This document shows, piece after piece, positions 13,196 through 25,745 of a DNA stretch of 64,000 bases. The DNA is taken from assembly GCA_001604005.1 (NCBI GenBank), contig LVAM01000005.1:62001-126000 (forward strand). Reading direction: 5' to 3'. Numbering within the stretch: the stretch's first letter is position 1; every line of letters starts with the position of its first letter. This DNA comes from Clostridiales bacterium Firm_07. Lineage in GTDB: Bacteria > Bacillota > Clostridia > Oscillospirales > CAG-272. Both the position numbers and the translations under genes were made by a program. The notes beneath the pieces are model-generated. The model ran no database searches, was not told where the DNA came from, and saw only the letters and a list, made by a program, of their open reading frames with translations.

Positions 13196-15544
13196 CTATG
13201 CGCTTTCTTTTTCCGCCGCCTCGGGCGCGGCGTTCCCGATCTCGGTGATGAGCACCGAGGTGTCGTCTTTGCCGTCGGTGTCGGCGCGGTTCAGGACTAG
13301 ACGGGCAAAGGATTCCGCGTCCCCCACCCACTTGGTTTTGAGCAAGTCGGAGAGCCACGGGCAATCCTCGTCGCCGTCGGTCACGCCGTCGCTCACCTGT
13401 ACGATAACGTCGCCGGGGAGGACCGAAAAACGGATACGCTCGGCGTCGAGCGATTCGAGAATACCGATCGGCGCGGTGCGGGAAAAGAAGCGCGTCACTT
13501 CGCCGTCGCGCAGCAGAAAACTCGGTGCCGCGCCGCATTTGAAGAGCGAAGCTTCACCGTTTACGCGGTCGATCATCAAAAGATCCACGGTCGTGCTGGA
13601 TTCCGCTTCGCGCGCGCCGCGCGAGGCGAGAAAGGCGTTGAGCATACGCAACGTGGTTTCGGGGCGGTTGCCCGATACCAGCATACGCGAAAGGAACGTG
13701 CCGGCAAGCGCGGAGGTCAGCGCCGCCGCGTTGCCGCTGCCCATACCGTCGCAGAGCAGGGCGAAATCCTTGCCCGTGTCGCTTTGAAAAGAAGTGACGG
13801 TATCCCCGCAATAACGGCTGTTTTTCTTGTTTTTCGCGCGCGTATCCCGTACCGAAGAGGAGAAAAAGCGTTCGCGCTCCGGAAAAACGATGTCGAAAAC
13901 GCCGTCGCTTTCGCGTATTTCCGGTTCTCCGAGCGCAAAACGGCAGATTTTCACGATGCGTTCGCGCAATTCCCGGATTTTGAGATGCCTGCCCGGTGAT
14001 CGGAGCCCGCGCAGGATCACGCGGCGATATTTTTCGCCGCAAACCGTCGCGGATTCCAAGAAATAGCCTTGCGCGGAGAGCTTTTCCGCGATTTTCGCGC
14101 CTTTCGCGGTGTCCGCCGCGAAGTTTTCCTTTTCTTCATCCATCGTTTCCCGCATCACGCGGGAGAGCGCGGCGTAGTCGCTTGCCACCACGGAAGTTTT
14201 ATCGCCGCGCAGGGTGTTTTCGGTCAGACGCACGGCGCCGGCGTTGATGCGTTCCAAAATTTCGGGCAGAGCCGCACAGCGCGCGATCAAGGGAGCGGGC
14301 AGTTCCTCGCGCCCCACGGAGCCTTTTTCCTGCAAACGGAGCGCGAGACCGCCCACTGCCGCCGCGGTTTGCGTGTATTCCCGCCCCCAGCAGATATCCC
14401 GATGGGCGCAGTTTGGGCAAACGCTGTCAAAGGATTGATCGCACAGGTGTTTGAGATCCCCGCCGCCCGGTCGGCGCAGGCGATTCGAGAGTTCGAAAAA
14501 CGTGCCCGACAGATCCGAAAGCGCCCCCGATATGTCACAAAGGCGCGCGGCAAACGCCGCTTGTTCTTCGGCTTTTGCGGCGAGCAGGGCGTTTCGCCGC
14601 GCCGTCACACCCGCGCGGTGCGCGGGAGAGCCCGCCACAAGCCCGGCGCTGTCTCCCGCAAGAAACAGCGCGCCTGCCGTCAGGAGCGATGGAAGCAGGC
14701 GGTAAATGCCCTCCGTGCCCGAAAGCGCAAAAATATACGCCGTCGCCGCCGCCGCGCCCGCAAGCACGCCGCCGCCCCGACTGCTTTTTTGGAGAAGCCC
14801 GAAACCGATCGCCGCAAGGAGAAAGGCGGGGGCAAATTTGGGCATAAACGCCAAGCCGGAAAGCGCCCCGCCGATCGCGCCGTAGAGCATATCCCGATGC
14901 GCCGTCAGGAGAAAAGCGATGCCCGCCGCCGCGACGCTCGCGGGAAAGATGCCGAAAATCTCCACGTCGCGCAAAGCGAAGATCGACGCGAGCGTCAGCG
15001 CCGCGACGCCCACCTCAAAGGCGTGGGGAAAGGGCTTGTCCTTTTTTTCGGAGATGCCCGAAAAGAAAAAGGTCAAAAGCGCCGCGCTTGCCACGGCGAG
15101 CAGAAGCCCAAAGAGATAATAATAGCGGAAATTGCCGCGCCACAGTCGAAAAAAACCGCCGATCAGCACCGCGAACGCCGCCGCGGCGGCGCGAAATCCG
15201 ACGCGCTCCGTGAAAGCGGGGATCGCCTTTTTGTCTTTCGTCAAAAAAAGCGAGAGGAGAAGACGGCAAAAGAGCGTGACGCCGATGGCGAGCAGGGAAT
15301 CGTAATCTTTTGTGAAAAGGCAAAAGAGCACGCCGCCCGCCGCGGCGGCGGGCGCAAGGCGGTCGAGCCCCGCGATGAGCGCCACGCCGAAAGGGCGCAC
15401 GCCGAAAAGCAGTTCCGCACTGCAAAGCAGCGCTCCCAGCGCCGCGAAAAGCAGATAAGCGACCGCCGTTTCGGCGAGAGACGACTCGTTTGAAAACAAG
15501 ATGGAACGCCGTTCTTTTTTTGGTTTTCTTTGTGTATCCGTCAT
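13196..15544 (-). CDS. spoIIE: Stage II sporulation protein E, PP2C-type phosphatase
   Basis: Membrane phosphatase that dephosphorylates the anti-anti-sigma factor SpoIIAA and so activates sigma-F in the forespore. 782 residues from the ATG at 15544, which has AAGGAGG before it. About ten hydrophobic segments occupy roughly residues 25-310. A central regulatory/linker region contains a Cys cluster (CDQSFDSVCPNCAHRDICWG). The C-terminal PP2C domain shows LLCDGMGSGNAA, VSDGVTDGDED and GKDDTSVLI, which supply the metal-binding Asp residues. Its length fits the family. The upstream promoter has the unusual 21-base spacer seen at Spo0A-activated promoters. This gene is strong evidence for a spore former. 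Confidence 0.95.
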   Translation of the reverse strand: MTDTQRKPKKERRSILFSNESSLAETAVAYLLFAALGALLCSAELLFGVRPFGVALIAGLDRLAPAAAAGGVLFCLFTKDYDSLLAIGVTLFCRLLLSLFLTKDKKAIPAFTERVGFRAAAAAFAVLIGGFFRLWRGNFRYYYLFGLLLAVASAALLTFFFSGISEKKDKPFPHAFEVGVAALTLASIFALRDVEIFGIFPASVAAAGIAFLLTAHRDMLYGAIGGALSGLAFMPKFAPAFLLAAIGFGLLQKSSRGGGVLAGAAAATAYIFALSGTEGIYRLLPSLLTAGALFLAGDSAGLVAGSPAHRAGVTARRNALLAAKAEEQAAFAARLCDISGALSDLSGTFFELSNRLRRPGGGDLKHLCDQSFDSVCPNCAHRDICWGREYTQTAAAVGGLALRLQEKGSVGREELPAPLIARCAALPEILERINAGAVRLTENTLRGDKTSVVASDYAALSRVMRETMDEEKENFAADTAKGAKIAEKLSAQGYFLESATVCGEKYRRVILRGLRSPGRHLKIRELRERIVKICRFALGEPEIRESDGVFDIVFPERERFFSSSVRDTRAKNKKNSRYCGDTVTSFQSDTGKDFALLCDGMGSGNAAALTSALAGTFLSRMLVSGNRPETTLRMLNAFLASRGAREAESSTTVDLLMIDRVNGEASLFKCGAAPSFLLRDGEVTRFFSRTAPIGILESLDAERIRFSVLPGDVIVQVSDGVTDGDEDCPWLSDLLKTKWVGDAESFARLVLNRADTDGKDDTSVLITEIGNAAPEAAEKESA

Positions 15545-15581
15545 AGGAGACCTCCTTGCCGTTCTTGCGGCTTTTTTCTTC

Positions 15582-15614
15582 ATTATAGGCGGCAAAGAGA
15601 GCAAAAGAGGTCAA
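15582..15614 (-). promoter_or_regulatory. spoIIE promoter with a 21-base spacer (Spo0A-type)
   Basis: Minus strand: TTGACC, 21 bases, TATAAT, about 40 bases before the spoIIE start. Near-consensus hexamers with a 21-base gap are typical of Spo0A-P-activated SigA promoters such as Bacillus spoIIE and spoIIG. A TGTCGAT at 15672-15678 (plus strand) matches 6 of 7 bases of the 0A box TGTCGAA. Confidence 0.6.
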
Positions 15615-15748
15615 AAATCGCCGCCGAAAAAGGGCAGAGCGAAAGCCATCGCGCCAAAAGCGGGGGGAGTGTGTCGATACGACGCGAAAGACCTCGAAAC
15701 AAGGCGAACGATTTTTGCCCTCGGGAGGTATATTTTGCGAAAAGCAAC

Positions 15749-15776
15749 TTGAAAACCCGCGAAAATGTGCTATACT
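15749..15776 (+). promoter_or_regulatory. SigA-type promoter for the SLOG gene
   Basis: TTGAAA, 16 bases, TATACT, with TGC before the -10, 24 bases before the GTG start. Confidence 0.7.
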
Positions 15777-15799
15777 GAAAACGAAAGGGGGGAGGACAA

Positions 15800-16273
15800 G
15801 TGCCAAGCTGTTGTTTTACAGGCCATCGTACCATCGCAAAAAAGGCGATGCTGCCGCTGGCGCGGGCGTTGGACAAAACGCTTGCCGATCTGTTTGCCGC
15901 CGGCGTTACGGATTTTTATACCGGCGGCGCGATCGGGTTCGATACGCTGGCGGCGCTCCGCGTGCTTGCTCTGCGTGAAAAAGAACCTTCCTGTCGATTG
16001 ACGCTCGTGCTTCCCTGCCGCGATCAGAGCAAACTTTGGGATGAGGGGGCACGCGCGCTTTACGAGGATATCCTTGCGCGCGCCGACGAGGTCTTCTATG
16101 TGCGGGAGCACTATACGCCGGATTGTATGCGCGCGCGCAACGAGGCGCTGATACAGGGTAAAGATATTTTGGTGGCATATCTCACGCGCAGTCGCGGCGG
16201 CACGGCAAGTACCTATCTTGCCGCGCTTCGCGCGGGGCTTGACGTTATCAATCTCGCCGAGCAATGTTTGTAA
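15800..16273 (+). CDS. SLOG-family protein (DUF1273/YpsA-like)
   Basis: 157 residues, GTG start preceded by GGGAGG. The Rossmann-like SLOG nucleotide-binding motifs are CCFTGHR at the N terminus, TGGAIGFDTLAAL in the middle and SRGGTASTY near the end. The family includes YpsA and is related to DprA and LOG; members are thought to bind nucleotide-derived ligands. The precise function is not known. It is monocistronic between spoIIE (divergent) and the DUF1846 gene. Confidence 0.8.
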   Translation: MPSCCFTGHRTIAKKAMLPLARALDKTLADLFAAGVTDFYTGGAIGFDTLAALRVLALREKEPSCRLTLVLPCRDQSKLWDEGARALYEDILARADEVFYVREHYTPDCMRARNEALIQGKDILVAYLTRSRGGTASTYLAALRAGLDVINLAEQCL

Positions 16274-16330
16274 AAAAGTGATCTTCTTTTTGTGTAAAAC
16301 GGCGAAATTCAAAAAAAATGTCGAAATCGC

Positions 16331-16359
16331 TTGTCCTCAAATTCTCCTTATGCTATAAT
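16331..16359 (+). promoter_or_regulatory. SigA-type promoter for the DUF1846 gene
   Basis: TTGTCC, 17 bases, TATAAT, with TGC before the -10. Transcription starts near 16366, so the in-frame ATG at 16318 cannot be used. Confidence 0.8.
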
Positions 16360-16398
16360 GTTTTTATTGTAATAAAGAACAGCGCGGGAGGTGTTTTG

Positions 16399-17883
16399 AT
16401 GTATCGCGTAGGTTTTGACAATGACAAGTATATCCGGACGCAATCCGGACATATTCACGAGAGAATTTCGCAGTTTGGCTCGAAACTGTATCTGGAATTC
16501 GGCGGCAAACTGTTTGACGATTATCACGCCTCGCGCGTGCTTCCCGGCTTTGAGCCGGACAGTAAGATCCGTATGCTGTTGCAACTCTCCGCCGAGGCGG
16601 AGATCGTCATTGCCATCAACGCCACCGATATTGAGAAAAACAAGGTGCGCGGCGACCTTGGCATCACCTACGATCAGGACGTGTTGCGCCTTATCGACGC
16701 CTTCCGCGGTTTTGGGCTTTACGTGGGCAGCGTGGTATTGACACGCTACGAAGGGCAGAGCGCGGCGCTCGCTTTCCAAAAACTGCTGGAAATGCGGGGT
16801 CTTAAAGTCTATCGGCATTATTCGATCCCCGGGTACCCCACCGACGTCAAAAAGATCGTGAGCGACGAGGGATACGGCAAAAACGACTACATCGAGACGA
16901 CGCGCTCGCTCGTGGTGGTCACGGCTCCGGGCCCCGGTTCGGGCAAAATGGCGGTGTGCCTCTCGCAACTCTATCATGACAACAAGCGGGGCATCCGCTC
17001 GGGGTACGCCAAATTTGAGACTTTCCCCATTTGGAATTTGCCCCTTGAACACCCCGTCAACCTCGCCTATGAGGCGGCGACGGCGGACCTGAGCGACGTC
17101 AATATGGTCGATCCTTTCCACCTTGCCGCGTATGGCAAAGTGACGGTCAACTATAACCGCGATGTGGAGATTTTCCCCGTGGTGCGCGCGATGCTCGAAC
17201 ACATTTACGGCACCTGTCCCTATCAGTCGCCCACGGATATGGGCGTCAATATGGCGGGATTTTGCATTTTTGACGACGCCGCCGTGCAGGAAGCCGCGCG
17301 CGACGAGATCGTGCGGCGCTACTATCAGGCGCTGTGCAGTTATCGCAAAGGCGATAACGACGGATCGGAAGCCGAGCAGATCAAAATGATCATGGCGAAC
17401 GCACACCTTGACGAGACGCAACGCCCCGTCATCGCGGCGGCGCTTGCCCTTGCCGAAGAGACGGCGGAACCTGCCGCGGCGATTCAACTCTCAAACGGCG
17501 AGATCGCGACGGGCAAAACCTCCAAATTGCTCGGCGCGGCGTCGGCGGCGCTTCTCAACGCCTTGAAAAAAGCGGCGGGGATCCCCAAAGAGATTGACCT
17601 CATCTCTCCCGAGGTTTTGGAGCCTGTCTCGACCCTTAAAATCGAACGGCTCGGCAATCGTAACCCGCGGCTTCACCCCGACGAGGTGTTGATCGCTCTC
17701 TCGATCTGCGCCGCCAAAGAGGAGCCCGCGCGCCGCGCGCTGGAGAGTTTGCCGAAACTGCGGCATTGTGAAGCGCACTCGAGCGTGATTATGTCCAACA
17801 ACGACCTTGCCACGATGAAAAAACTCGGCATACAAATGACCTGCGAGCCGCGCTATCAGACCAAAAAACTCTATCACGGTTGA
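16399..17883 (+). CDS. DUF1846-family protein
   Basis: 494 residues, ATG at 16399 after GGGAGG. The sequence matches the DUF1846 family throughout, including the start (YRVGFDNDKYI.TQS..I.ER), INATDIEKNK.RGDLGITYD, APGPGSGKMAVCLSQLYHD and the basic C terminus. The P-loop-like GPGSGKMA and the conserved length suggest a nucleotide-binding enzyme, but the biological role has not been settled. It is widely conserved in Firmicutes. Strong own promoter and terminator, so it is monocistronic. Confidence 0.9.
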   Translation: MYRVGFDNDKYIRTQSGHIHERISQFGSKLYLEFGGKLFDDYHASRVLPGFEPDSKIRMLLQLSAEAEIVIAINATDIEKNKVRGDLGITYDQDVLRLIDAFRGFGLYVGSVVLTRYEGQSAALAFQKLLEMRGLKVYRHYSIPGYPTDVKKIVSDEGYGKNDYIETTRSLVVVTAPGPGSGKMAVCLSQLYHDNKRGIRSGYAKFETFPIWNLPLEHPVNLAYEAATADLSDVNMVDPFHLAAYGKVTVNYNRDVEIFPVVRAMLEHIYGTCPYQSPTDMGVNMAGFCIFDDAAVQEAARDEIVRRYYQALCSYRKGDNDGSEAEQIKMIMANAHLDETQRPVIAAALALAEETAEPAAAIQLSNGEIATGKTSKLLGAASAALLNALKKAAGIPKEIDLISPEVLEPVSTLKIERLGNRNPRLHPDEVLIALSICAAKEEPARRALESLPKLRHCEAHSSVIMSNNDLATMKKLGIQMTCEPRYQTKKLYHG

Positions 17884-17895
17884 TCTTCAAGTGAT

Positions 17896-17931
17896 AAAAC
17901 AGCCGTCACGGTTTTCCGTGACGGCTGTTTT
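17896..17931. terminator. Bidirectional terminator between the DUF1846 gene and cotJC
   Basis: A perfect 16-bp stem (17896-17911 and 17916-17931) with a TTTT loop, AAAA and TTTT at the ends. Confidence 0.93.
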
Positions 17932-17941
17932 GTGTTGGCGA

Positions 17942-18553
17942 TCATTCGCGCGGCTGTATCTTGTCGTAAACAGGATTGAAGGCGTAAAAATTGCGGCTGT
18001 CAAGGCGCTCCTGCGTTCTTGTGAGCGCGTCGCCGAAGCGCTGAAAGTGCACGATCTCGCGTGCCCGCAGATAGCGTAAGGGTTCGGTGACGTCGGGATC
18101 GTCGGAAAGGCGAATGAGGTTTTCGTAGGTCGTGCGCGCCTTTTGTTCGGCGGCAAGGTCCTCGGAAAGATCGGTTATGACGTCGCCCTTGACCGCGAAC
18201 GCACGGGCGTTAAAGGGTGTGCCGTCCGCGCCCGCGGGATAGACGCCCGTAGTGTGGTCGGTAAAATACGCGGCAAACGGGCTTTTGGCGATCTCCTCCT
18301 CCGAGAGGTTGGCGGTCAGTTGATGAAGGATCGCCGCCACAATTTCAAGGTGCGCCAATTCTTCGGTACCCACGTCGGTCAGCATTCCCGCCACGTCGCG
18401 GTAGGGCATCGCGTAGCGTTGATTCAGATAGCGCATACTTGCGCCGAGTTCGCCGTCAGGTCCGCCGAGTTGCGAAACGATGATGTGCGCAAGGCGCGCG
18501 TTTGGGTTTTTGATGCGCACGGGATATTGCAGTTTTTTCTCGTAGATCCACAT
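17942..18553 (-). CDS. cotJC: Spore coat protein CotJC (manganese-catalase-like)
   Basis: 203 residues. The ferritin-like four-helix fold of manganese catalases is recognisable by DVGTEELAHLEIV (metal ligands Glu and His, about residues 61-73) and the later AREIVHFQRFGDAL block with its Glu/His. CotJC is an inner coat protein. It is the third gene of a cotJA-cotJB-cotJC operon, starting 12 bases after cotJB. The order and sizes match the Bacillus/Clostridium operon. Confidence 0.94.
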   Translation of the reverse strand: MWIYEKKLQYPVRIKNPNARLAHIIVSQLGGPDGELGASMRYLNQRYAMPYRDVAGMLTDVGTEELAHLEIVAAILHQLTANLSEEEIAKSPFAAYFTDHTTGVYPAGADGTPFNARAFAVKGDVITDLSEDLAAEQKARTTYENLIRLSDDPDVTEPLRYLRAREIVHFQRFGDALTRTQERLDSRNFYAFNPVYDKIQPRE

Positions 18554-18565
18554 ATCTTTCTCCTT

Positions 18566-18847
18566 TCAGCCCATATTGGCGACAAGTTCCCACGGCCACG
18601 GAGTCTTGATCCAATCCCACGAGACGGCGTTTTCGCTTGCCGTCGCCGTCAGCGGGCCGACGGTCGCTTCATATTGCTTTGCGAGTTGTTGCCGTTTCTC
18701 TTTAAGCGTGCGGTAAAAGGCGAGGGCTTCCGCACAACTCGGGTAGGCGTCGAGATAAAGGTTGGTTTCCACAAGGCAAAAGTCAACCTTTTGCAGTTCG
18801 TCAAGAAGCCGCGCGCCGTTCGCGGCGTTTTTGTTCATCATATCCAT
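18566..18847 (-). CDS. cotJB: Spore coat protein CotJB
   Basis: 93 residues. The family pattern is visible: an LLDELQKVDFCLVETNLYLD helix, DAYPSCAEAL and a tryptophan-rich end (SWDWIKTPWPWE). CotJB is a small coat protein needed with CotJC. Start at 18847, 12 bases after cotJA. Alternative start at the second Met (MNK) is possible and would change only three residues. Confidence 0.93.
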   Translation of the reverse strand: MDMMNKNAANGARLLDELQKVDFCLVETNLYLDAYPSCAEALAFYRTLKEKRQQLAKQYEATVGPLTATASENAVSWDWIKTPWPWELVANMG

Positions 18848-18859
18848 CGCGTTCTCCTT

Positions 18860-19132
18860 TCAGCGCCTTGTCAGCGTCTTGCCCTCAAAGGGCTTGTATA
18901 ATTCCGCGAACATCGTGCCGCGCGAGAGGGCGACGGCGGGATCGAACAGTTGCCGCCAAGATTGTTTCGGGGTATATACCATAGCGAGCGCGCGCCGATC
19001 GCCGCCGTTTTCGGGGATGTTCGCTTCTGCCATCGTCGGCACGGCGCGCGGCGTCGGCTTTGCCGTGCCGCGCAAAACTTGCCGCAAATACCGCTCTTCC
19101 GAGCGCCACGCGGCGGATCTGTTGTCAAACAT
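18860..19132 (-). CDS. cotJA: Spore coat-associated protein CotJA
   Basis: 90 residues from the ATG at 19132, after AAAGGAGAT. The C-terminal half carries the family motif LAMVYTPKQSWRQLFDPAVA followed by LSRGTMFAELYKPF, typical of CotJA. The first 45 residues are basic and not conserved. It is the first gene of the coat operon; the likely promoter is at 19181-19209. Confidence 0.9.
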   Translation of the reverse strand: MFDNRSAAWRSEERYLRQVLRGTAKPTPRAVPTMAEANIPENGGDRRALAMVYTPKQSWRQLFDPAVALSRGTMFAELYKPFEGKTLTRR

Positions 19133-19180
19133 TCAGGGGATCTCCTTTGTTGTTTTCAGAGAGCAAAGCCCTCTGCTGAC

Positions 19181-19209
19181 AGTATATGCCCGCTGTCGAA
19201 AGGTGTCAT
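19181..19209 (-). promoter_or_regulatory. Promoter of cotJABC (SigA-like, overlapping a SigE-like -10)
   Basis: Minus strand: ATGACA, 17 bases, TATACT. The same place reads CATATACT, close to the sigma-E -10 (CATACA.T), but no good sigma-E -35 is seen. In Bacillus this operon is read by sigma-E, so which factor is used here is open. Confidence 0.5.
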
Positions 19210-19220
19210 AAAGCGACGAA

Positions 19221-19244
19221 AAAAGCGCCGAGGTCGGCGCTTTT
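19221..19244 (-). terminator. Terminator of the small membrane-protein gene
   Basis: Arms AAAAGCGCC and GGCGCTTTT with a short loop, followed on the minus strand by TTTTTT. It separates the islet from cotJABC. Confidence 0.8.
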
Positions 19245-19257
19245 TATAATCGTTATG

Positions 19258-19632
19258 TTACTTTTTGTTTGCGTTGTCTTGCTTATCGGAATTGCCGCTC
19301 TCTGGCTCGGATAAACCATTAGATCTGATATACATACTGAGATAGATGCTGACGGTAAGACTAATCGCAAGAATGCAGATGCCAATAACAAGGTATGTTA
19401 TGGAATTAGAGTAAGGGGACAAACTCCGAAGCCATTTGATGCCGGCTTGGGATACATCGGAAAAGTCGGCGCTTGTCCTGAACTGATATTCTTGATAAAT
19501 ACCGATGAGAAGAAGAATGGCTCCGATCACGGAAAACACATCGTTTGCCACCCATATGGCAAACAAGGTGGGGGAGCGTTTTGATACTATCTTCATATCA
19601 ATTTTCTTTTTGTTGGTTGTTGAGTTTTTCAT
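19258..19632 (-). CDS. Small two-pass membrane protein of unknown function
   Basis: 124 residues, start at 19632 after GGAGAAAAAAC. The basic N terminus (about 1-22) is followed by one hydrophobic segment (about 26-46), a roughly 30-residue loop, a second segment (about 77-100), and a polar tail rich in Asn, Ser, Asp and Lys. Both ends should be cytoplasmic. No family is recognised. The gene is visibly AT-richer than its neighbours, suggesting separate origin. It lies at the end of a transcript read from the perfect promoter at 19857-19885 and so is probably repressed by the XRE protein encoded at 19933. Confidence 0.65.
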   Translation of the reverse strand: MKNSTTNKKKIDMKIVSKRSPTLFAIWVANDVFSVIGAILLLIGIYQEYQFRTSADFSDVSQAGIKWLRSLSPYSNSITYLVIGICILAISLTVSIYLSMYIRSNGLSEPESGNSDKQDNANKK

Positions 19633-19655
19633 TTGTTTTTTCTCCTGTTGCTATA

Positions 19656-19819
19656 TTAGAATACAATACGAATGAAGTCAGCCCTTTTGGGATATATTGG
19701 CAATTTTTGAGCGCCGAACTGTTGCGCTTGTATCAATCTTCGGGTACAGAAAGATGAATTGGCACTGATAATAATTTACTTGTCGCACCGTTCACGATAA
19801 AAATGATTTTGTACTGCAT
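19656..19819 (-). pseudogene. Small ORF, probably frameshifted
   Basis: The first ORF on the transcript from 19857-19885. An AAAGGAGG ribosome site precedes the ATG at 19819; the frame codes for 28 residues (MQYKIIFIVNGATSKLLSVP and 8 more) and stops at 19733-19735. Shifting by one base at that stop opens another 26 codons to 19656 (LIQAQQFGAQKLPIYPKRAD and 6 more), which read like a continuation. The ancestral product would be about 54 residues. Either the gene is broken, or the 28-residue peptide is the functional product, or there is programmed frameshifting. No family recognised. Confidence 0.4.
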
Positions 19820-19856
19820 CGTGTTCAGAAACCTCCTTTTCTGTAATTTCGCCTAT

Positions 19857-19885
19857 ATTATACTGCAATTTGCGGTATTTGTCAA
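19857..19885 (-). promoter_or_regulatory. Perfect consensus SigA promoter of the islet operon
   Basis: Minus strand: TTGACA, exactly 17 bases, TATAAT. Two operator-like repeats overlap it, one from the -10 through the spacer and one starting at the edge of the -35. So strong a promoter is expected to be held off by a repressor. Confidence 0.85.
19860..19878. promoter_or_regulatory. Operator-like palindrome O1
   Basis: ATACTGCAATTTGCGGTAT is a 19-base near-palindrome (8 of 9 base pairs around a central T). It covers part of the -10 and the spacer of the minus-strand promoter. Likely binding site of the adjacent XRE protein. Confidence 0.65.
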
Positions 19886-19903
19886 TACTGCATTTTGCGT
19901 TAT
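19885..19903. promoter_or_regulatory. Operator-like repeat O2
   Basis: ATACTGCATTTTGCGTTAT matches O1 at 17 of 19 bases, in direct orientation, 25 bases away centre to centre, with weaker dyad symmetry. It lies against the -35 of the minus-strand promoter and 30 bases before the xre start, so it may also serve autoregulation. Confidence 0.65.
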
Positions 19904-19932
19904 GGGAAAATTTATAAAAAGGGGGCGAGGTT

Positions 19933-20142
19933 ATGTTTCGACGCATACGCGATTTGCGCGAAGACCACGATATGACGCAAAAAGAAATTGCCGCAAAGTT
20001 GAATTGTTCTCAACAGGTATATAGCAATTATGAATTGGGACAGCGCGACATTCCCACGGACATTTTAATAAAACTTTCCAAATTATACGGTGTTTCGGTT
20101 GATTATATCCTCGGGATCAGCGATGTTCCGAGAATACGATGA
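19933..20142 (+). CDS. XRE-family helix-turn-helix repressor
   Basis: 69 residues, almost entirely a Cro/C1-type DNA-binding domain: RIRDLREDHDMTQKEIAAKL with recognition-helix region CSQQVYSNYELGQ (about 25-37) and a closing LSKLYGVSVDYILG. No ligand-binding or protease domain follows, so any signal must come from outside. ATG at 19933 follows a GGGGGCGAGG stretch. It is divergent from the small-ORF/membrane-protein transcript and is the obvious candidate to bind O1 and O2. AT-richer than the surrounding chromosome. Confidence 0.88.
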   Translation: MFRRIRDLREDHDMTQKEIAAKLNCSQQVYSNYELGQRDIPTDILIKLSKLYGVSVDYILGISDVPRIR

Positions 20143-20182
20143 AACGGCTTGCAAAGTACCGCTCTTTTGTAAATTTCACGAA

Positions 20183-20218
20183 AAAACAGCCCTTGAAGAA
20201 AACTTCAAGGGCTGTTTT
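20183..20218. terminator. Bidirectional terminator between xre and ppdK
   Basis: A perfect 16-bp stem (AAAACAGCCCTTGAAG and complement) around AAAA. It serves both convergent genes. Confidence 0.93.
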
Positions 20219-20247
20219 GGCGTCTTGCCGACAAGCGGCAAGGGAAA

Positions 20248-22887
20248 TTATTGTTTGTCTTTCAGGGCTGCCTGTGCTGCCGCGAGGCGAGCGATCGGCA
20301 CGCGGAAAGGCGAGCAGGAAACGTAGGAGAGCCCGATCTTGTGGCAAAATTCCACAGAGGAGGGATCGCCGCCGTGTTCACCGCAAATGCCGCAGTGCAT
20401 ATCGGGACGCACGCTCTTGCCGAGTTTCACTGCCATCTCCATCAATTTGCCGACGCCGACCTGGTCGAGTTTTGCGAAAGGATCGCTCTCGTAGATCTTG
20501 GTGTCGTAGTAAGAGGGCAGGAACTTGCCGGCGTCGTCGCGGGAGAAGCCGAAGGTCATCTGCGTCAGGTCGTTGGTGCCGAAGCAGAAGAAATCCGCCT
20601 CTTTGGCGATCTCGTCGGCAGTCAGCGCCGCGCGCGGGATCTCGATCATCGTGCCGACCTCGTATTTGAGGTTCGCGCCCGCAGCCGCGATCTCGGCGTC
20701 GGCGGTCTTCACCACGATGTCTTTCACATATTTGAGTTCTTTCACCTCGCCGACCAGCGGGATCATGATCTCGGGGACGAGTTTCCAGTCGGGATGTTTC
20801 TTTTGCACGTTGATCGCGGCGCGGATGACGGCTTTCGTCTGCATCACGGCGATCTCGGGGTAGGTAACGGTCAGGCGGCATCCGCGGTGACCCATCATCG
20901 GGTTCGCCTCGTGGAGACCCTGGATGATGCCCTTGATCTCAACGACCGATTTGCCCTGTGCTTTGGCGAGGGCTTCGATCTCGGCTTCCTCGGTGGGAAC
21001 GAATTCGTGGAGCGGGGGATCGAGGAAACGAATGGTGACGGGGTTGCCTTCAAGCGCCTCGTAGAGGGCTTCGAAGTCCGCCTGCTGCATCGGCATGATC
21101 TTGGCAAGAGCCGCTTCGCGCTCGGCCACTTTGTCGGCGCAGATCATCTCGCGGAACGCGGCGATACGGGAGGGCTCGAAGAACATATGTTCGGTACGGC
21201 AAAGGCCGATGCCCTCGGCGCCGAGTTCGCGGGCTTTCTTCGCGTCGCGGGGGGTATCCGCGTTGGTGCGGACTTTCAGTTTGCGGTATTGATCCGCCCA
21301 CGCCATAATGCGGCCGAAGTTGCCGCCGATCTGTGCGTCAACGGTGGGGATCACGCCGTCGTAAATCTTACCGGTAGAGCCGTCGATGGAGATGAAGTCG
21401 CCCTCGTGGAAGGTCTTGCCGGCGAGTTTGAACTGTTTGTTCTCCTCGTCCATCACGATGTCACCGCAGCCCGAAACGCAGCAGGTGCCCATGCCGCGCG
21501 CCACGACAGCCGCGTGGGAGGTCATACCGCCGCGCACGGTGAGAATGCCTTGCGCCGCTTTCATACCGGTGATATCTTCGGGAGAAGTTTCAAGACGAAC
21601 GAGCACCACTTTCTTGCCGGCCTTCTTCCAAGCCTCAGCATCGTCGGCGGTGAAGACGATCTGACCGCAAGCGGCACCGGGGGAAGCACCAAGGCCTTTG
21701 CCAATAGGCGTTGCGGCTTTGAGGGCTTTGGCGTCGAACTGCGGGTGCAGGAGCGTGTCAAGGTTGCGGGGGTCGATCATCAAGACCGCCTCTTCGGGGG
21801 TTCTCATACCCTCGTCCACCAGGTCGCAGGCAATTTGCAGAGCCGCTTGCGCGGTGCGTTTGCCGTTGCGGCACTGCAACATATACAGTTTGCCGTTTTC
21901 CACGGTAAACTCCATATCTTGCATATCGCGGTAGCGGGTTTCCAGAATGCCGCAAACGTCAACGAACTGTTTGTAAGCGTCGGGGAATTGCTCCGCCATT
22001 TGGGAAATGGGCATCGGGGTACGCACGCCGGCGACCACGTCTTCGCCCTGCGCGTTGACAAGGAATTCGCCCATCAGTTTTTTCTCGCCGGTGGCGGGAT
22101 CGCGGGTGAAAGCGACGCCGGTGCCGGAGTTGTTGTTGAGGTTACCGAAGACCATCGGCATCACGTTGACGGCAGTGCCCCAAGAATAGGGAATGTCGTT
22201 GTCGCGGCGATAGACGTTGGCGCGGGGGTTGTCCCAAGAGCGGAACACGGCGCGGATGGCTTCGTAGAGTTGTTCTTTCGGGTCGCTGGGGAAGTCTTTG
22301 CCGAGTTGTTTCTTGTATTCGGCTTTGAATTGTCCCGCGAGCTCTTTAAGGTCGGCGGCGGTGAGGTCGATGTCAAAGGTCACGCCCTTCTTCGCTTTCA
22401 TCGCGTCGATCAGTTGCTCAAAATATTTTTTGCCGACTTCCATCACCACGTCCGAGAACATCTGGATAAAGCGGCGGTAGGAGTCGTATACGAATCTTTC
22501 AAATTTGGGGTCGGGGTTCTTCGAGATCATCGCGGCGACCACTTCGTCGTTCAAACCGAGGTTGAGGATGGTATCCATCATACCGGGCATCGAAGCGCGC
22601 GCGCCGGAACGAACGGAGACGAGCAGGGGATTTTCAAGATCGCCGAACTTTTTGCCGTTGATCTTTTCCATCTCGGCAACGTTCTTCATAATCTCCGCCA
22701 TAATCTCGTCGTTGATGCGTCTGCCGTCCTCATAATACTGGGTGCAGGCTTCGGTGGAAATGGTGAAGCCCTGGGGAACGGGAAGACCGATCTTGGTCAT
22801 CTCGGCGAGGTTGGCGCCTTTGCCGCCGAGTAGCTCACGCATAGAGGCGTCGCCTTCGGTGAACAGGTAGCAATACTTCTTGGACAT
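20248..22887 (-). CDS. ppdK: Pyruvate, phosphate dikinase
   Basis: Interconverts pyruvate + ATP + Pi and PEP + AMP + PPi; in anaerobic Clostridia it links glycolysis and gluconeogenesis and saves energy with PPi. 879 residues, full length. N-terminal ATP-binding domain (GGKGANLAEM at about 23-32, SVRSGARASMPGMMDT), then the swivelling phosphohistidine domain (GGMTSHAAVVARGMG, catalytic His), then the C-terminal PEP/pyruvate barrel ending with MHCGICGEHGGDPSS, which contains the catalytic Cys. Own promoter at 22964-22992; ATG follows a GGAGGTAAAAA site. The PPi it makes or uses connects to the pyrophosphatase at 1176. Confidence 0.97.
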   Translation of the reverse strand: MSKKYCYLFTEGDASMRELLGGKGANLAEMTKIGLPVPQGFTISTEACTQYYEDGRRINDEIMAEIMKNVAEMEKINGKKFGDLENPLLVSVRSGARASMPGMMDTILNLGLNDEVVAAMISKNPDPKFERFVYDSYRRFIQMFSDVVMEVGKKYFEQLIDAMKAKKGVTFDIDLTAADLKELAGQFKAEYKKQLGKDFPSDPKEQLYEAIRAVFRSWDNPRANVYRRDNDIPYSWGTAVNVMPMVFGNLNNNSGTGVAFTRDPATGEKKLMGEFLVNAQGEDVVAGVRTPMPISQMAEQFPDAYKQFVDVCGILETRYRDMQDMEFTVENGKLYMLQCRNGKRTAQAALQIACDLVDEGMRTPEEAVLMIDPRNLDTLLHPQFDAKALKAATPIGKGLGASPGAACGQIVFTADDAEAWKKAGKKVVLVRLETSPEDITGMKAAQGILTVRGGMTSHAAVVARGMGTCCVSGCGDIVMDEENKQFKLAGKTFHEGDFISIDGSTGKIYDGVIPTVDAQIGGNFGRIMAWADQYRKLKVRTNADTPRDAKKARELGAEGIGLCRTEHMFFEPSRIAAFREMICADKVAEREAALAKIMPMQQADFEALYEALEGNPVTIRFLDPPLHEFVPTEEAEIEALAKAQGKSVVEIKGIIQGLHEANPMMGHRGCRLTVTYPEIAVMQTKAVIRAAINVQKKHPDWKLVPEIMIPLVGEVKELKYVKDIVVKTADAEIAAAGANLKYEVGTMIEIPRAALTADEIAKEADFFCFGTNDLTQMTFGFSRDDAGKFLPSYYDTKIYESDPFAKLDQVGVGKLMEMAVKLGKSVRPDMHCGICGEHGGDPSSVEFCHKIGLSYVSCSPFRVPIARLAAAQAALKDKQ

Positions 22888-22926
22888 TTTTTACCTCCAA
22901 AATGTTACTTTTTTTCGGGTTAAAAC

Positions 22927-22948
22927 GCAAAAACGGCATAAGCCGTTC
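22927..22948 (-). promoter_or_regulatory. Hairpin in the ppdK leader
   Basis: On the minus strand AACGGC-TTAT-GCCGTT followed by TTTGCGTTTT sits a few bases after the expected transcription start. It resembles a weak intrinsic terminator or attenuator, but the T tract is interrupted. Confidence 0.35.
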
Positions 22949-22963
22949 TGCGCGTTACACGCT

Positions 22964-22992
22964 ATTATAGCACAAATCACCGCAAAACGCAA
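22964..22992 (-). promoter_or_regulatory. SigA-type promoter for ppdK
   Basis: Minus strand: TTGCGT, 17 bases, TATAAT, with TGC before the -10. About 77 bases lie between the -10 and the start codon. Confidence 0.75.
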
Positions 22993-23062
22993 GGCTTTTT
23001 TACCAAAAAATGAAAAAATACGCGCGCGCGACGCGCGTTTTTAAGAAAATACCGAAAAGCCC

Positions 23063-23092
23063 TTGACAAAAGTTTTCTTTTCAGTATATAAT
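23063..23092 (+). promoter_or_regulatory. SigA-type promoter for rpmH
   Basis: TTGACA, 18 bases, TATAAT: consensus hexamers, as expected for a ribosomal-protein gene. The leader of roughly 70 bases ends in AAGGAGGTG. Confidence 0.88.
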
Positions 23093-23170
23093 GAATAGGT
23101 CACTGTAAAAGCGTGCAATCGGTCACGGTCCGATACGCTTCCGATTTTCTATGATGAAGGAGGTGCCGAA

Positions 23171-23305
23171 ATGCTTAGAACTTACCAGCCCAAAAAGCGG
23201 CAGAGAAAAAAGGAGCACGGTTTCAGAAAGAGAATGAGAACTGCGGATGGCAGAAATGTTCTGAAAAGAAGACGCGCAAAAGGCAGAAAAAGACTCACCT
23301 ATTAA
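23171..23305 (+). CDS. rpmH: 50S ribosomal protein L34
   Basis: 44 residues, a complete L34. The family signature is clear: [20 protein letters not shown] at the start and the basic end [15 protein letters not shown] at 23171 follows AAGGAGGTG. It heads the conserved rpmH-rnpA-yidD-yidC-jag-mnmE group. The usual divergent neighbour dnaA is absent; ppdK occupies that place. Confidence 0.97.
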
Positions 23306-23329
23306 GTCTTGATGCTTTGATAGAAAAAC

Positions 23330-23377
23330 GACCGGTGTCATCATTCGCAAGGAGAAGGTGGGCACCGGCTTTTTTCT
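23330..23377 (+). terminator. Terminator-like hairpin between rpmH and rnpA
   Basis: ACCGGTG pairs with CACCGG across a 25-base loop, followed by CTTTTTT. It could trim or partly terminate the rpmH transcript so that L34 mRNA exceeds rnpA mRNA. Confidence 0.5.
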
Positions 23378-23425
23378 CAAAAACGGAACGTATGTTTTTT
23401 CCACGGAAGCGGAGTGATCGGTGAT

Positions 23426-23806
23426 ATGAAATTCGACGCAATCAGAGAGCATCATTTATACAGCAAAACTTTTGCCAAAGGCGAGCGCGCCGTGGGCAAA
23501 ATGATGGCGGTGTACGTACAGCGGGATTATCTTGCGCAAAAACTGCAAAAGGCGGATCCCCGCCGCCGCGCTTTCAACCGCGTGGGGCTGTCGGTCGGCA
23601 AAAAGATCGGCGGCGCCGTTCGGAGAAACCGCGCAAAGCGGCTTTTGCGCGAGGGCTACCGCGCCGTGCGCGCGGCGGGCGTGAAGACCGGCTTTTTGGT
23701 GGTGATCGCCGCACGCGAGGAGATCGTCGGCAAAAAAGCGCAAGCCGTCACGCGCGAAATGATGCGCCTTTTCGAGCGCCTCGGTCTTTTGGAGGCGCCG
23801 CGATGA
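23426..23806 (+). CDS. rnpA: Ribonuclease P protein component
   Basis: Basic protein subunit that helps the RNase P RNA mature tRNA 5' ends. 126 residues from the ATG at 23426; the in-frame GTG at 23414 overlaps the GGAG ribosome site and is not favoured. The start [20 protein letters not shown] and the RNR-type motif [18 protein letters not shown] (about 70-87) are diagnostic. The stop overlaps the yidD start by four bases. Confidence 0.95.
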
Positions 23807-24162
23807 AATATCTTTGTATCTGGCTGATTCGTTTTTACAGAAAATGCCTATCGCCATTAAAACGCAAACCCTGCTGCCGGTTTGTGCCCACTTGTTCCGA
23901 GTACGCCATCGAGGCGTTTCAAAAGCGCGGCTTTTTCGTCGGTTTCGCGCTGACGGTGTGGCGCGTATTGCGGTGCAATCCGTATGCGGCGGGCGGTTAT
24001 GATCCCGTTCCGGAAACGGGATTTCGCTATCGCGGTCCCCGCGATATCCCCGATCCTTTGTGCCGAGAAGAGGGCGGCACGACAGATTTTGCCCCTTCAA
24101 ATGAGAAAAACGCGGCGTCGACCGCATCGAATTTTTCTACTGAGGAAAGGAAAGACAAATGA
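23803..24162 (+). CDS. yidD: Membrane protein insertion efficiency factor YidD
   Basis: 119 residues. The family core covers the first 70: an amphipathic N terminus ([17 protein letters not shown]), then [20 protein letters not shown] with its Cys pattern, and [17 protein letters not shown]. It assists YidC-dependent insertion. The C-terminal 45 residues are a polar, low-complexity extension not needed for family identity. Starts inside the rnpA stop (ATGA) and its stop overlaps the yidC start, so three genes are coupled. Confidence 0.94.
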
Positions 24163-25745
24163 AGAAACATCATTTTTTAGGCAAGGCGCTGTTCCTTTTG
24201 CTGGCGTTCTGTCTCGTCGCGGCAACGTTGGTTTCCTGCAACAAAAGCACGACGTTGGATACCGCCTGGACAAGCGCCGATACCGACGCCCCCACGTATT
24301 TCGCGCGCATTTTGCCGATGAGCGACGAGGCGCGTGAAAAATTCACCGCCGCGTCGCGCGGCTACAATATGAGCGCGGAAGGTTTCGTCGATCCCGAAGA
24401 AGCCCCCGATCTCGGTTTTGTGGATCTTGACGGCGCGCGCGCCGCGCTGGAACTTGTCAAACCGAGCGACGACGCGTCGATCGCGAAGTTTACGGAGTTT
24501 CGCGACAATCTGACCGAGGACGAGGTGAAAACGACGGTGGAGAAGATGAAGACCACCGTGGATCTGACGCCGACCTCCGGTATCAAAATGATCCTTGTCT
24601 GGATCGGTAAATTCCTGCAACTGCTCACCAAAATGACCGCGGGATACTATGTGTGGGCGCTCTTTATCTTCGCGCTGATCGTGGAGATTTTGATGCTCCC
24701 CTTCGGCATCAAACAGCAGAAGAACTCGCAAAAACAGGCGAAACTGCGCCCGAAAGAACTGGCGATCCGCAAAAAATACGCGGGTAGGACCGATCAGGTC
24801 TCCGCGCGCAAAATGCAGGAGGAGATCCAGCGCCTTTATCAGCAGGAGGGCTTCAATCCGATGGGCGGATGCCTGCCGCTCCTTATCCAAATGCCGATCC
24901 TGATCGCGCTTTATAATTTGGTGGTGGATCCGCTCCAATACGTGCTCGGAAAAGGACAGGGGCTCTCGGCCGCGCTCTCTTCGTATTGCACCACCGCCCG
25001 TGCGGCGGGCGGGCTCGGTGTGTCGCTTTCCAAGAGCCGCGGCACCATCGAACTGCTTTCCAAAGTGACCGATAAACTGGAAGGTTTTGCCAATTTCGGT
25101 TATTTCGGCAACTCCGCTGCCTGCGCCGCCGAACTTGAAGGCGTAACGGTGCCGAACTTCAACTTTCTCGGTATGAATACCGGTCTGATCCCCGGTTTCC
25201 ATAAGCCCTATATTTTGCTGTTGATCCCCGTGCTGACGTTCGTTTTCTATTTTGCGAGTATGAAACTCAATCGCAAACTTACCTTCCAACCCACGGCAAA
25301 CGATCCGCAAATGGGCTGTTCCAACAATATGATGGACATCACGATGCCGCTGATGAGCGTGTATATCACCTTCATCGTGCCTGCCGCGGTTGGCATTTAC
25401 TGGATCTTCAAATCCATTCTCTCCACCGGCAAGCAATTCGCTCTTGCCAAATTGATGCCTCTGCCCACCTATACGGAGGAGGATATCAAAGCCGCGGAGC
25501 GCGAACTGAAAGGAAAATCGAAAGGCGATCGCTCCGGCGCCGCCGAAAGGATCGCGGAAGGTCGTGTGATCCGCTCGCTCCACCATATCGACGATGACGA
25601 CGATCTTCCCCCGCGCGGCGCGGTGATCGAAGACGACGAAGACGACGAGGCGGAAGAAGCCGCGCCAGAGGCGACGGAGAAGGCGCCCGAAAACAAGATG
25701 TCGGCGCCGCTGAAACAGGATCGCAAAACAGACAAAAAGAAATGA
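24159..25745 (+). CDS. yidC: Membrane protein insertase YidC/SpoIIIJ (Oxa1 family), long form
   Basis: 528 residues, much longer than Bacillus YidC (about 260). Lipoprotein-type signal with LVSC (Cys27), then a 110-residue extracytoplasmic region, a membrane segment (about 141-185) and the cytoplasmic coiled loop [16 protein letters not shown] and [20 protein letters not shown], then [14 protein letters not shown] and two further segments. The loop between the second and third segments is about 80 residues longer than usual. The tail is acidic ([15 protein letters not shown]). Where most relatives have an Arg or Lys in the first core helix (…R..LLP), this one has Glu176 ([10 protein letters not shown]). 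Encoded between yidD and jag, as in most Firmicutes. Confidence 0.93.

Follow-up and report, generated by a model that had tools for sequence, protein, structure and literature searches.

In Bacillus subtilis, the ImmR repressor of ICEBs1 binds both the promoter of its own gene and the divergent promoter of its target, as described in two papers (PMC4207663, PMC6540685). These promoters are about 130 bp apart and six regions are bound by ImmR, according to the first paper (PMC4207663), and the second reports that ImmR is inactivated by ImmA (PMC6540685). For plasmid pLS20, PMC4207663 describes RcoLS20, an Xre-family regulator that forms a switch at overlapping divergent promoters and whose operators are separated by 75 bp, with DNA looping. 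Participation of XRE regulators in phenotypic switching is described for Photorhabdus in PMC7905540.

The locus compared here with these systems is a 0.9-kb islet located in a 64-kb stretch of DNA, hereafter called the window, from a draft genome of 1.66 Mb that is 82% complete. The nearest solved relative of its XRE protein is ImmR itself (7t8i, E 1.3e-14), and both are small XRE repressors, in the islet by prediction, for which the regulator and target promoters are divergent. In contrast to ICEBs1, the islet shows two predicted operators interleaved with overlapping promoters and, unlike those of RcoLS20, these operators adjoin each other. Scanning of the ten neighbouring genes (13199-25742), which encode SpoIIE, YpsA, DUF1846, Mn-catalase, CotJB, CotJA, pyruvate phosphate dikinase (PPDK), RnpA, YidD and YidC, revealed no ImmA-like protease, integrase or mobile-element gene, and an ImmR-type arrangement with ImmA beside the repressor was rejected, the gene next to xre being the convergent PPDK gene. 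The logic of a helix-turn-helix repressor acting on adjacent palindromic operators of unequal strength is that of CI in phages 434 and lambda. The islet differs from 434/lambda CI in that its 69-aa XRE protein has no C-terminal domain, that no Cro-like partner is found in the window and that the target is a predicted membrane protein. Literature searches, made in a library that lacks most subscription journals, brought up no title or abstract devoted to this operator or cassette.

The AT-rich islet and its genes

As noticed in a first, sequence-only reading, the islet is AT-richer than its surroundings (39.9% GC versus 57.1% for the window), and an AT-richness as high is found in only 0.07% of the overlapping segments of equal length in the 64 kb. 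It is flanked by a CotJA/CotJB/Mn-catalase operon on one side and by the PPDK gene on the other. Its only plus-strand gene, xre, stands alone and faces away from the divergent transcript, as had been proposed, and the minus strand carries a 28-aa and a 124-aa ORF.

19220..19245, minus strand: hairpin that probably terminates the divergent unit (-22.2 kcal/mol and z -6.1 for the fold of 19205-19258).
19258..19632, minus strand: 124-aa predicted two-pass membrane protein, with hydrophobic stretches in residues 22-47 and 74-103.
19733..19819, minus strand: 28-aa ORF at the head of the divergent transcript, preceded by AAGGAGG (19832-19838).
19857..19885, minus strand: divergent promoter, -35 TTGACA (19885-19880), 17-bp spacer, -10 TATAAT (19862-19857), 12/12 consensus positions.
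19860..19878, no strand: predicted operator O1, core ACTGCAATTTGCGGT at 19862-19876, conserved in homologues.
19882..19911, plus strand: predicted xre promoter, inferred for the window, -35-like TCAATA (19882-19887), 18-bp spacer, -10-like GAAAAT (19906-19911).
19885..19903, no strand: predicted operator O2, whose core (19887-19901) differs from the family consensus at one position.
19933..20142, plus strand: XRE (HTH_3) repressor gene, 69 aa (Pfam HTH_3 at residues 5-59, 61.6 bits for a cut-off of 23).
20183..20218, plus strand: hairpin, a probable terminator that separates xre from the convergent ppdK-like gene (-34.3 kcal/mol and z -6.2 for the fold of 20143-20225).

The XRE fold is evident from the sequence, the HTH_3 domain scoring above its curated cut-off. 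Homologues with 75-85% identity were found in 5 of 20 congeners and, among the named records listed, the closest XRE proteins belong to Clostridia/Oscillospiraceae metagenome bins, many of them from the ruminant gut. PADLOC returned only HTH, regulator-type and candidate models for this protein, and the antitoxin matches in NCBIfam were far under cut-off. A role as a restriction-modification controller (C) protein was rejected despite a match to the Control_protein model (2.3e-7), none of the ten scanned neighbours being a restriction-modification gene. The small ORF with a strong ribosome site and the two-pass membrane protein of the sequence-only reading were both recovered, the latter as a prediction from its two hydrophobic stretches. 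When the segment was shuffled by mononucleotides, 0.56% of the shuffles contained an ORF as long as 124 aa.

The two end hairpins look like terminators, with a U-run pairing with an A-run; neither appeared in a consensus scan, and Rfam gave no match over 19100-20300. When empty sites were sought, the PPDK gene was present in 17 of 21 genomes; four loci (L074-L077) were unreadable, the end of this gene being not located or at a contig edge. Where readable, the stretch beyond the PPDK gene varies among congeners, so that no clean insertion point could be drawn.

Predicted operators and promoters in the window and in homologous loci

The two 19-base near-palindromes previously pointed out, O1 and O2, are identical at 17 of 19 positions, start 25 bp apart and are the sole matches in the window at up to three mismatches (four strand-wise matches, against a maximum of one in 100 shuffles); they form the only operator cluster detected there. 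The pair was omitted by a repeat finder at default settings because its exact seed is only 9 bases long. Across the genome to which the islet belongs, 12 strand-wise operator-like matches were counted, four of them in the islet, for three with the reversed control; the best site beyond the islet has two mismatches (C19:329547) and the others have three.

The sequence-only reading had O1 and O2 covering the -10/spacer and the -35 of a perfect promoter. This holds for O1, which extends over the spacer of the divergent promoter and the edge of its -10, but hardly for O2, which overlaps the divergent -35 by a single base; this -35 sits in the gap between the operators, and the promoter whose spacer contains O2 is the one predicted for xre. 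The promoter itself, announced as the most perfect one, is TTGACA-N17-TATAAT; no other site in the 64 kb reaches 12/12 with a spacer of 17 bp. Another 12/12 match, with an 18-bp spacer (TTGACA-N18-TATAAT), is located at 23063 (plus strand), upstream of the RnpA, YidD and YidC genes. A scan of 4 kb found three promoter-like sites, a number expected by chance (mean 2.8); the two besides the divergent promoter score 10 and 9. The xre promoter of the window looks weak and the divergent one ideal, as judged from their boxes.

To what extent this arrangement recurs was assessed in genome contigs, where the scan for XRE found at least 578 relatives, of which the best 80 were kept; these 80 loci are a sample of one XRE subfamily because the scan patterns included the recognition helix. 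The sequence ACYGCAWWWTGCRGT, with at most three mismatches each time, was found twice and exactly 25 bp apart in 68 of the 80 best loci, and at least one site with no more than one mismatch in 72. No pair and no single site was obtained in 2000 dinucleotide shuffles; mononucleotide shuffles gave 0/1600 for pairs and 1/1600 for single sites, and none of the 80 downstream control regions had a site. The pair was retained in 64 of 76 loci after removal of the four that repeat the congeners from which the ACYGCAWWWTGCRGT pattern was defined, and the two best sites per locus were 25 bp apart in 64/80. The exact 25-bp pair is absent from the other 12 loci: L092 and L116 show no operator match within 220 bp although their recognition helix is complete, L146 has an altered helix and no operator, and the remaining ones show single or weak sites or a different spacing. 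Repressor/operator control by the XRE protein, as predicted in the sequence-only reading, is strongly supported by this recurrence. The distance from O2 to the XRE match is variable (25 to 71 nt).

The pair is present in all five congeners with a 75-85% identical XRE protein, with two mismatches in G007. A search for the pair only, allowing up to three mismatches, found it in 19 of 395 family genomes and 12 of 71 genera, for none with the reversed pattern, and in 17 of the 19 loci retrieved, the XRE N-terminal motif was located 39-58 bp beyond the pair; the motif was not found in L059 and in L062, the latter a three-mismatch match. Exact operators outside pairs were few (three in 18 of the 19 pair-bearing genomes, G320 being left out, and three in five genomes without a pair), which argues against a regulon of perfect sites. 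In one genome (G341:C13:63792-66396), two operator pairs are separated by 2.5 kb and may belong to two copies of the switch.

Sixty-nine loci, the 68 and the window, were aligned. On the minus strand, O1 directly adjoins a TATAAT or TAAAAT, and the 10-bp gap contains TTGAC; O1 is therefore in the spacer of the divergent promoter. In 62/69 loci, the best match to this promoter keeps one offset and a spacer of 17 bp; the score is at least 10/12 in 51/69, compared with 14 of 1725 shuffled segments. On the plus strand, the best -10 match falls at one offset after O2 in 47/69 loci (TATAAT in 39/69) and a weak TCAATA overlapping the same gap is found in 35/69; the spacer of the predicted xre promoter therefore contains O2. 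The conserved palindromic operators thus overlap both predicted promoters, at the common offsets in 62/69 (divergent) and 47/69 (xre) loci, as in an autoregulated divergent repressor switch. The match to the consensus is closer for O1 than for O2 in 35 loci, less close in 2 and equally close in 32 (p = 1e-8). The left half of O2 reads ACAACA, not ACYGCA, in 23/69 loci (for instance L104, L112, L114, L119, L155 and L159), as if the affinity of O2 were tuned separately.

Diversity of the divergent genes

Of the 69 aligned loci, 68 yielded a divergent ORF, referred to below as the cargo (none in L151), with ORFs called greedily and not by a trained gene finder. In the window, the 28-aa ORF starts 45 nt from O1, and 38/58 cargos start at 25-70 nt. 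This ORF was searched in Pfam, NCBIfam, PHROGs, PADLOC and the fetched XRE loci, and had no relative among the latter (best E 4.9). The 124-aa protein had no match above cut-off in the same four databases, and PADLOC matched neither product; ABCC10_N (E 0.0019), Tetraspanin, holin and PTS-accessory matches were under cut-off and discarded. It was found in none of the 20 congeners, and pattern scans of viral and genome contigs did not recover it. The 394 other genomes of the family gave a single short match (39 residues, E 5.5e-4, in a 395-aa frame), which was judged to be due to chance. By these searches, the 124-aa membrane protein appears so far unique to its own genome within the collections covered.

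The cargos differ between loci. Those 62 that remain when the window is included and six dubious ORFs are excluded form 43 clusters, and even locus pairs whose XRE proteins are at least 85% identical share a cargo cluster in only 4 of 50 cases. Four of the five congeners with the pair have a recognisable divergent gene, each unlike that of the window and unlike one another's; none was clear in G007. The divergent gene of G006 seems, by eye, to own a separate promoter, which pure cargo control leaves unexplained, and those of some loci, such as L101 and L140, are unconvincing.

By a crude hydropathy rule, a hydrophobic segment was predicted in 47 of 67 cargos, the window being excluded; for the other ORFs of these loci the figure was 130 of 354 (odds ratio 4.0, p = 7e-7). 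The proportion was 47/61 after dropping the dubious ORFs (L100, L101, L119, L130, L140 and L154) and 30/42 with one count per cluster (p = 2e-5). Among the matches listed, which cover the first 25 of 74 Pfam families, the 62 cargos include Zn_Ribbon_1 (11), BspA-type LRR_5 (7), DUF4352 (3), choline-binding repeats (2) and HTH_3 (2), as well as single cases, among them an AMP-binding enzyme and a glycosyltransferase. In PADLOC, beyond HTH/RmrA regulator models, the 62 cargos matched just two RT-Protease_XI models, with one member each. A test named in the sequence-only reading, recurrence of the operator repeats and the membrane protein beside XRE genes of other genomes, gave a mixed outcome: the XRE gene and the operator pair do recur, but the 124-aa protein does not in the collections covered, and the association with membrane proteins holds only for the class, other cargos being enriched in hydrophobic segments. 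As judged from these comparisons, the cargo is exchanged under a constant switch and is often, though not exclusively, of the envelope type.

Proposed mechanism, alternatives and operator specificity

Comparison of the loci shows conserved operators, spacing and promoter boxes together with diverse cargos biased towards hydrophobic segments, and a regulatory reading of these sequences is well supported by it. Taken together, these data make it very probable that the islet is an autoregulated local repressor switch of the CI/ImmR kind, acting mainly on its divergent neighbour. Dimers of the 69-aa XRE protein would bind O1 and O2 in the manner of CI or ImmR. Since O1 lies in the spacer of a divergent promoter of consensus strength, its occupancy would shut off the transcript of the 28-aa and 124-aa ORFs; O2 lies in the spacer of the weaker xre promoter, so that higher occupancy, extending to O2, would limit xre itself. 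As O1 is better conserved than O2, less XRE protein should be needed to repress the cargo than to repress xre, and the two promoters, which share the -35 region between the operators, should compete for RNA polymerase. In the window, autoregulation may be weak because of the broken base in O2 and the GAAAAT -10 of xre. In the course of evolution, the regulator-operator unit would be kept and the divergent gene swapped, often for another envelope protein.

The shared -35 and the graded operators could also create two stable states, with only some cells displaying the envelope protein. The overlapping, symmetric promoters fit such a bistable heterogeneity switch, as do the Photorhabdus XRE regulators involved in phenotypic switching (PMC7905540) and the switch that an Xre regulator forms with overlapping divergent promoters in pLS20 (PMC4207663). 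Against it, the cargo of the window matches no DNA-binding family, so that the islet lacks a Cro-like counter-repressor, and only the two HTH_3 matches point to one among the 62 homologous cargos. Moreover, negative autoregulation alone usually damps expression and does not split it. We regard bistability as unlikely.

Somewhat less likely still, the islet might be the remnant of an ICE or prophage immunity module, in which an ImmR/CI-type repressor has outlasted its lost element and the divergent ORFs are debris of early genes. The proximity to ICEBs1 ImmR and the related XRE proteins in phage and plasmid records (162 and 77, respectively) are in agreement with this origin, to which may be added a divergent ORF beside the operator of another locus that resembles, by eye, a tyrosine recombinase (L125:418-1191, minus strand). 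However, the ten scanned neighbours, CotJ and PPDK among others, are of chromosomal type and include neither an integrase nor an ImmA-like protease, and the viral scan found just three relatives, two without an operator at up to two mismatches (L162 and L163) and one whose record starts at the match (L161). The operators are, in addition, under clear constraint in 68/80 loci.

A toxin-antitoxin or phage-defence module, with a toxic 28-aa or 124-aa product kept silent by XRE, is very improbable: the small membrane product, the strong and probably repressed promoter and the existence of antitoxins among XRE proteins (here with NCBIfam matches far under cut-off) speak for it, but these labels of the sequence-only reading found no support, as the genes are divergent and not co-directional as in a type II antitoxin-toxin operon, the cargo of the window is unmatched in PADLOC with few defence matches among the 62 cargos, and the genes opposite homologous switches do not form one toxin family but encode zinc-ribbon proteins, BspA-type repeats and various enzymes.

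Other XRE subfamilies of the genus were analysed for a similar layout. From 93 matches, 72 loci were used, of which 11 were not located by the motif and dropped, leaving 61; the palindrome words were 15-base only, so that even-length palindromes would escape. A palindrome pair of their own, beyond shuffles, was present in 24/61 loci, with a spacing of 25 bp in 23 of these; the other 37, including the QQ-helix locus L192 and the QN locus L027, had no pair beyond shuffles. The palindromes vary by XRE subfamily, and the residue after the first Gln of the recognition helix appears to follow the second base of the first operator: Q goes with AC (9/9), N with AT (9/9), T with AA (3/3) and P or S with AT (2/2), one locus being without such a Gln. 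As subfamily members are related, these counts represent about six independent cases. A QQ helix with operators starting with AC recalls 434, the parallel being with Gln28 and Gln29 of the 434 repressor. The 25-bp layout with different palindromes in some XRE subfamilies of the genus suggests local switches insulated from each other. That gut Clostridia own a repertoire of mutually insulated, CI-like plug-in switches of one architecture, with several operator specificities set by a few residues of the helix and a freely exchanged envelope or surface cargo giving regulated or cell-to-cell variable surfaces, is a possibility that we put forward tentatively.

A so far anonymous class of stand-alone XRE proteins would in this way be given a regulatory role, with site and target predicted and the geometry fixed, and the assignment could be extended to hundreds of relatives (at least 578). 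The apparent link between helix residue and operator base would offer a natural specificity code and orthogonal repressor parts and, should the cargos prove to be surface proteins that are replaced while the switch stays the same, this would be an unstudied mode of envelope control in gut bacteria. The wider pattern, in which a standard switch is combined with several operator specificities and a cargo that can be exchanged, is what deserves follow-up.

An XRE protein of a Paenibacillus popilliae plasmid (L224:2870-3200) is 64% identical, has QR in place of QQ in the helix and has no ACYGCA operator; a different palindrome, AGCGATAATTTCGCT, was seen upstream by eye. As a single case, it does not prove a helix/operator code. 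In a plasmid record of Subdoligranulum variabile TSDC17.2-1.1 (L223:2910-3210), an XRE gene is accompanied by O1 ACTGCAATTTGCGGT and O2 ACAACAAATTGCGGT, 25 bp apart; its divergent ORFs overlap, and the 88-aa one seems, by eye, to have two membrane segments.
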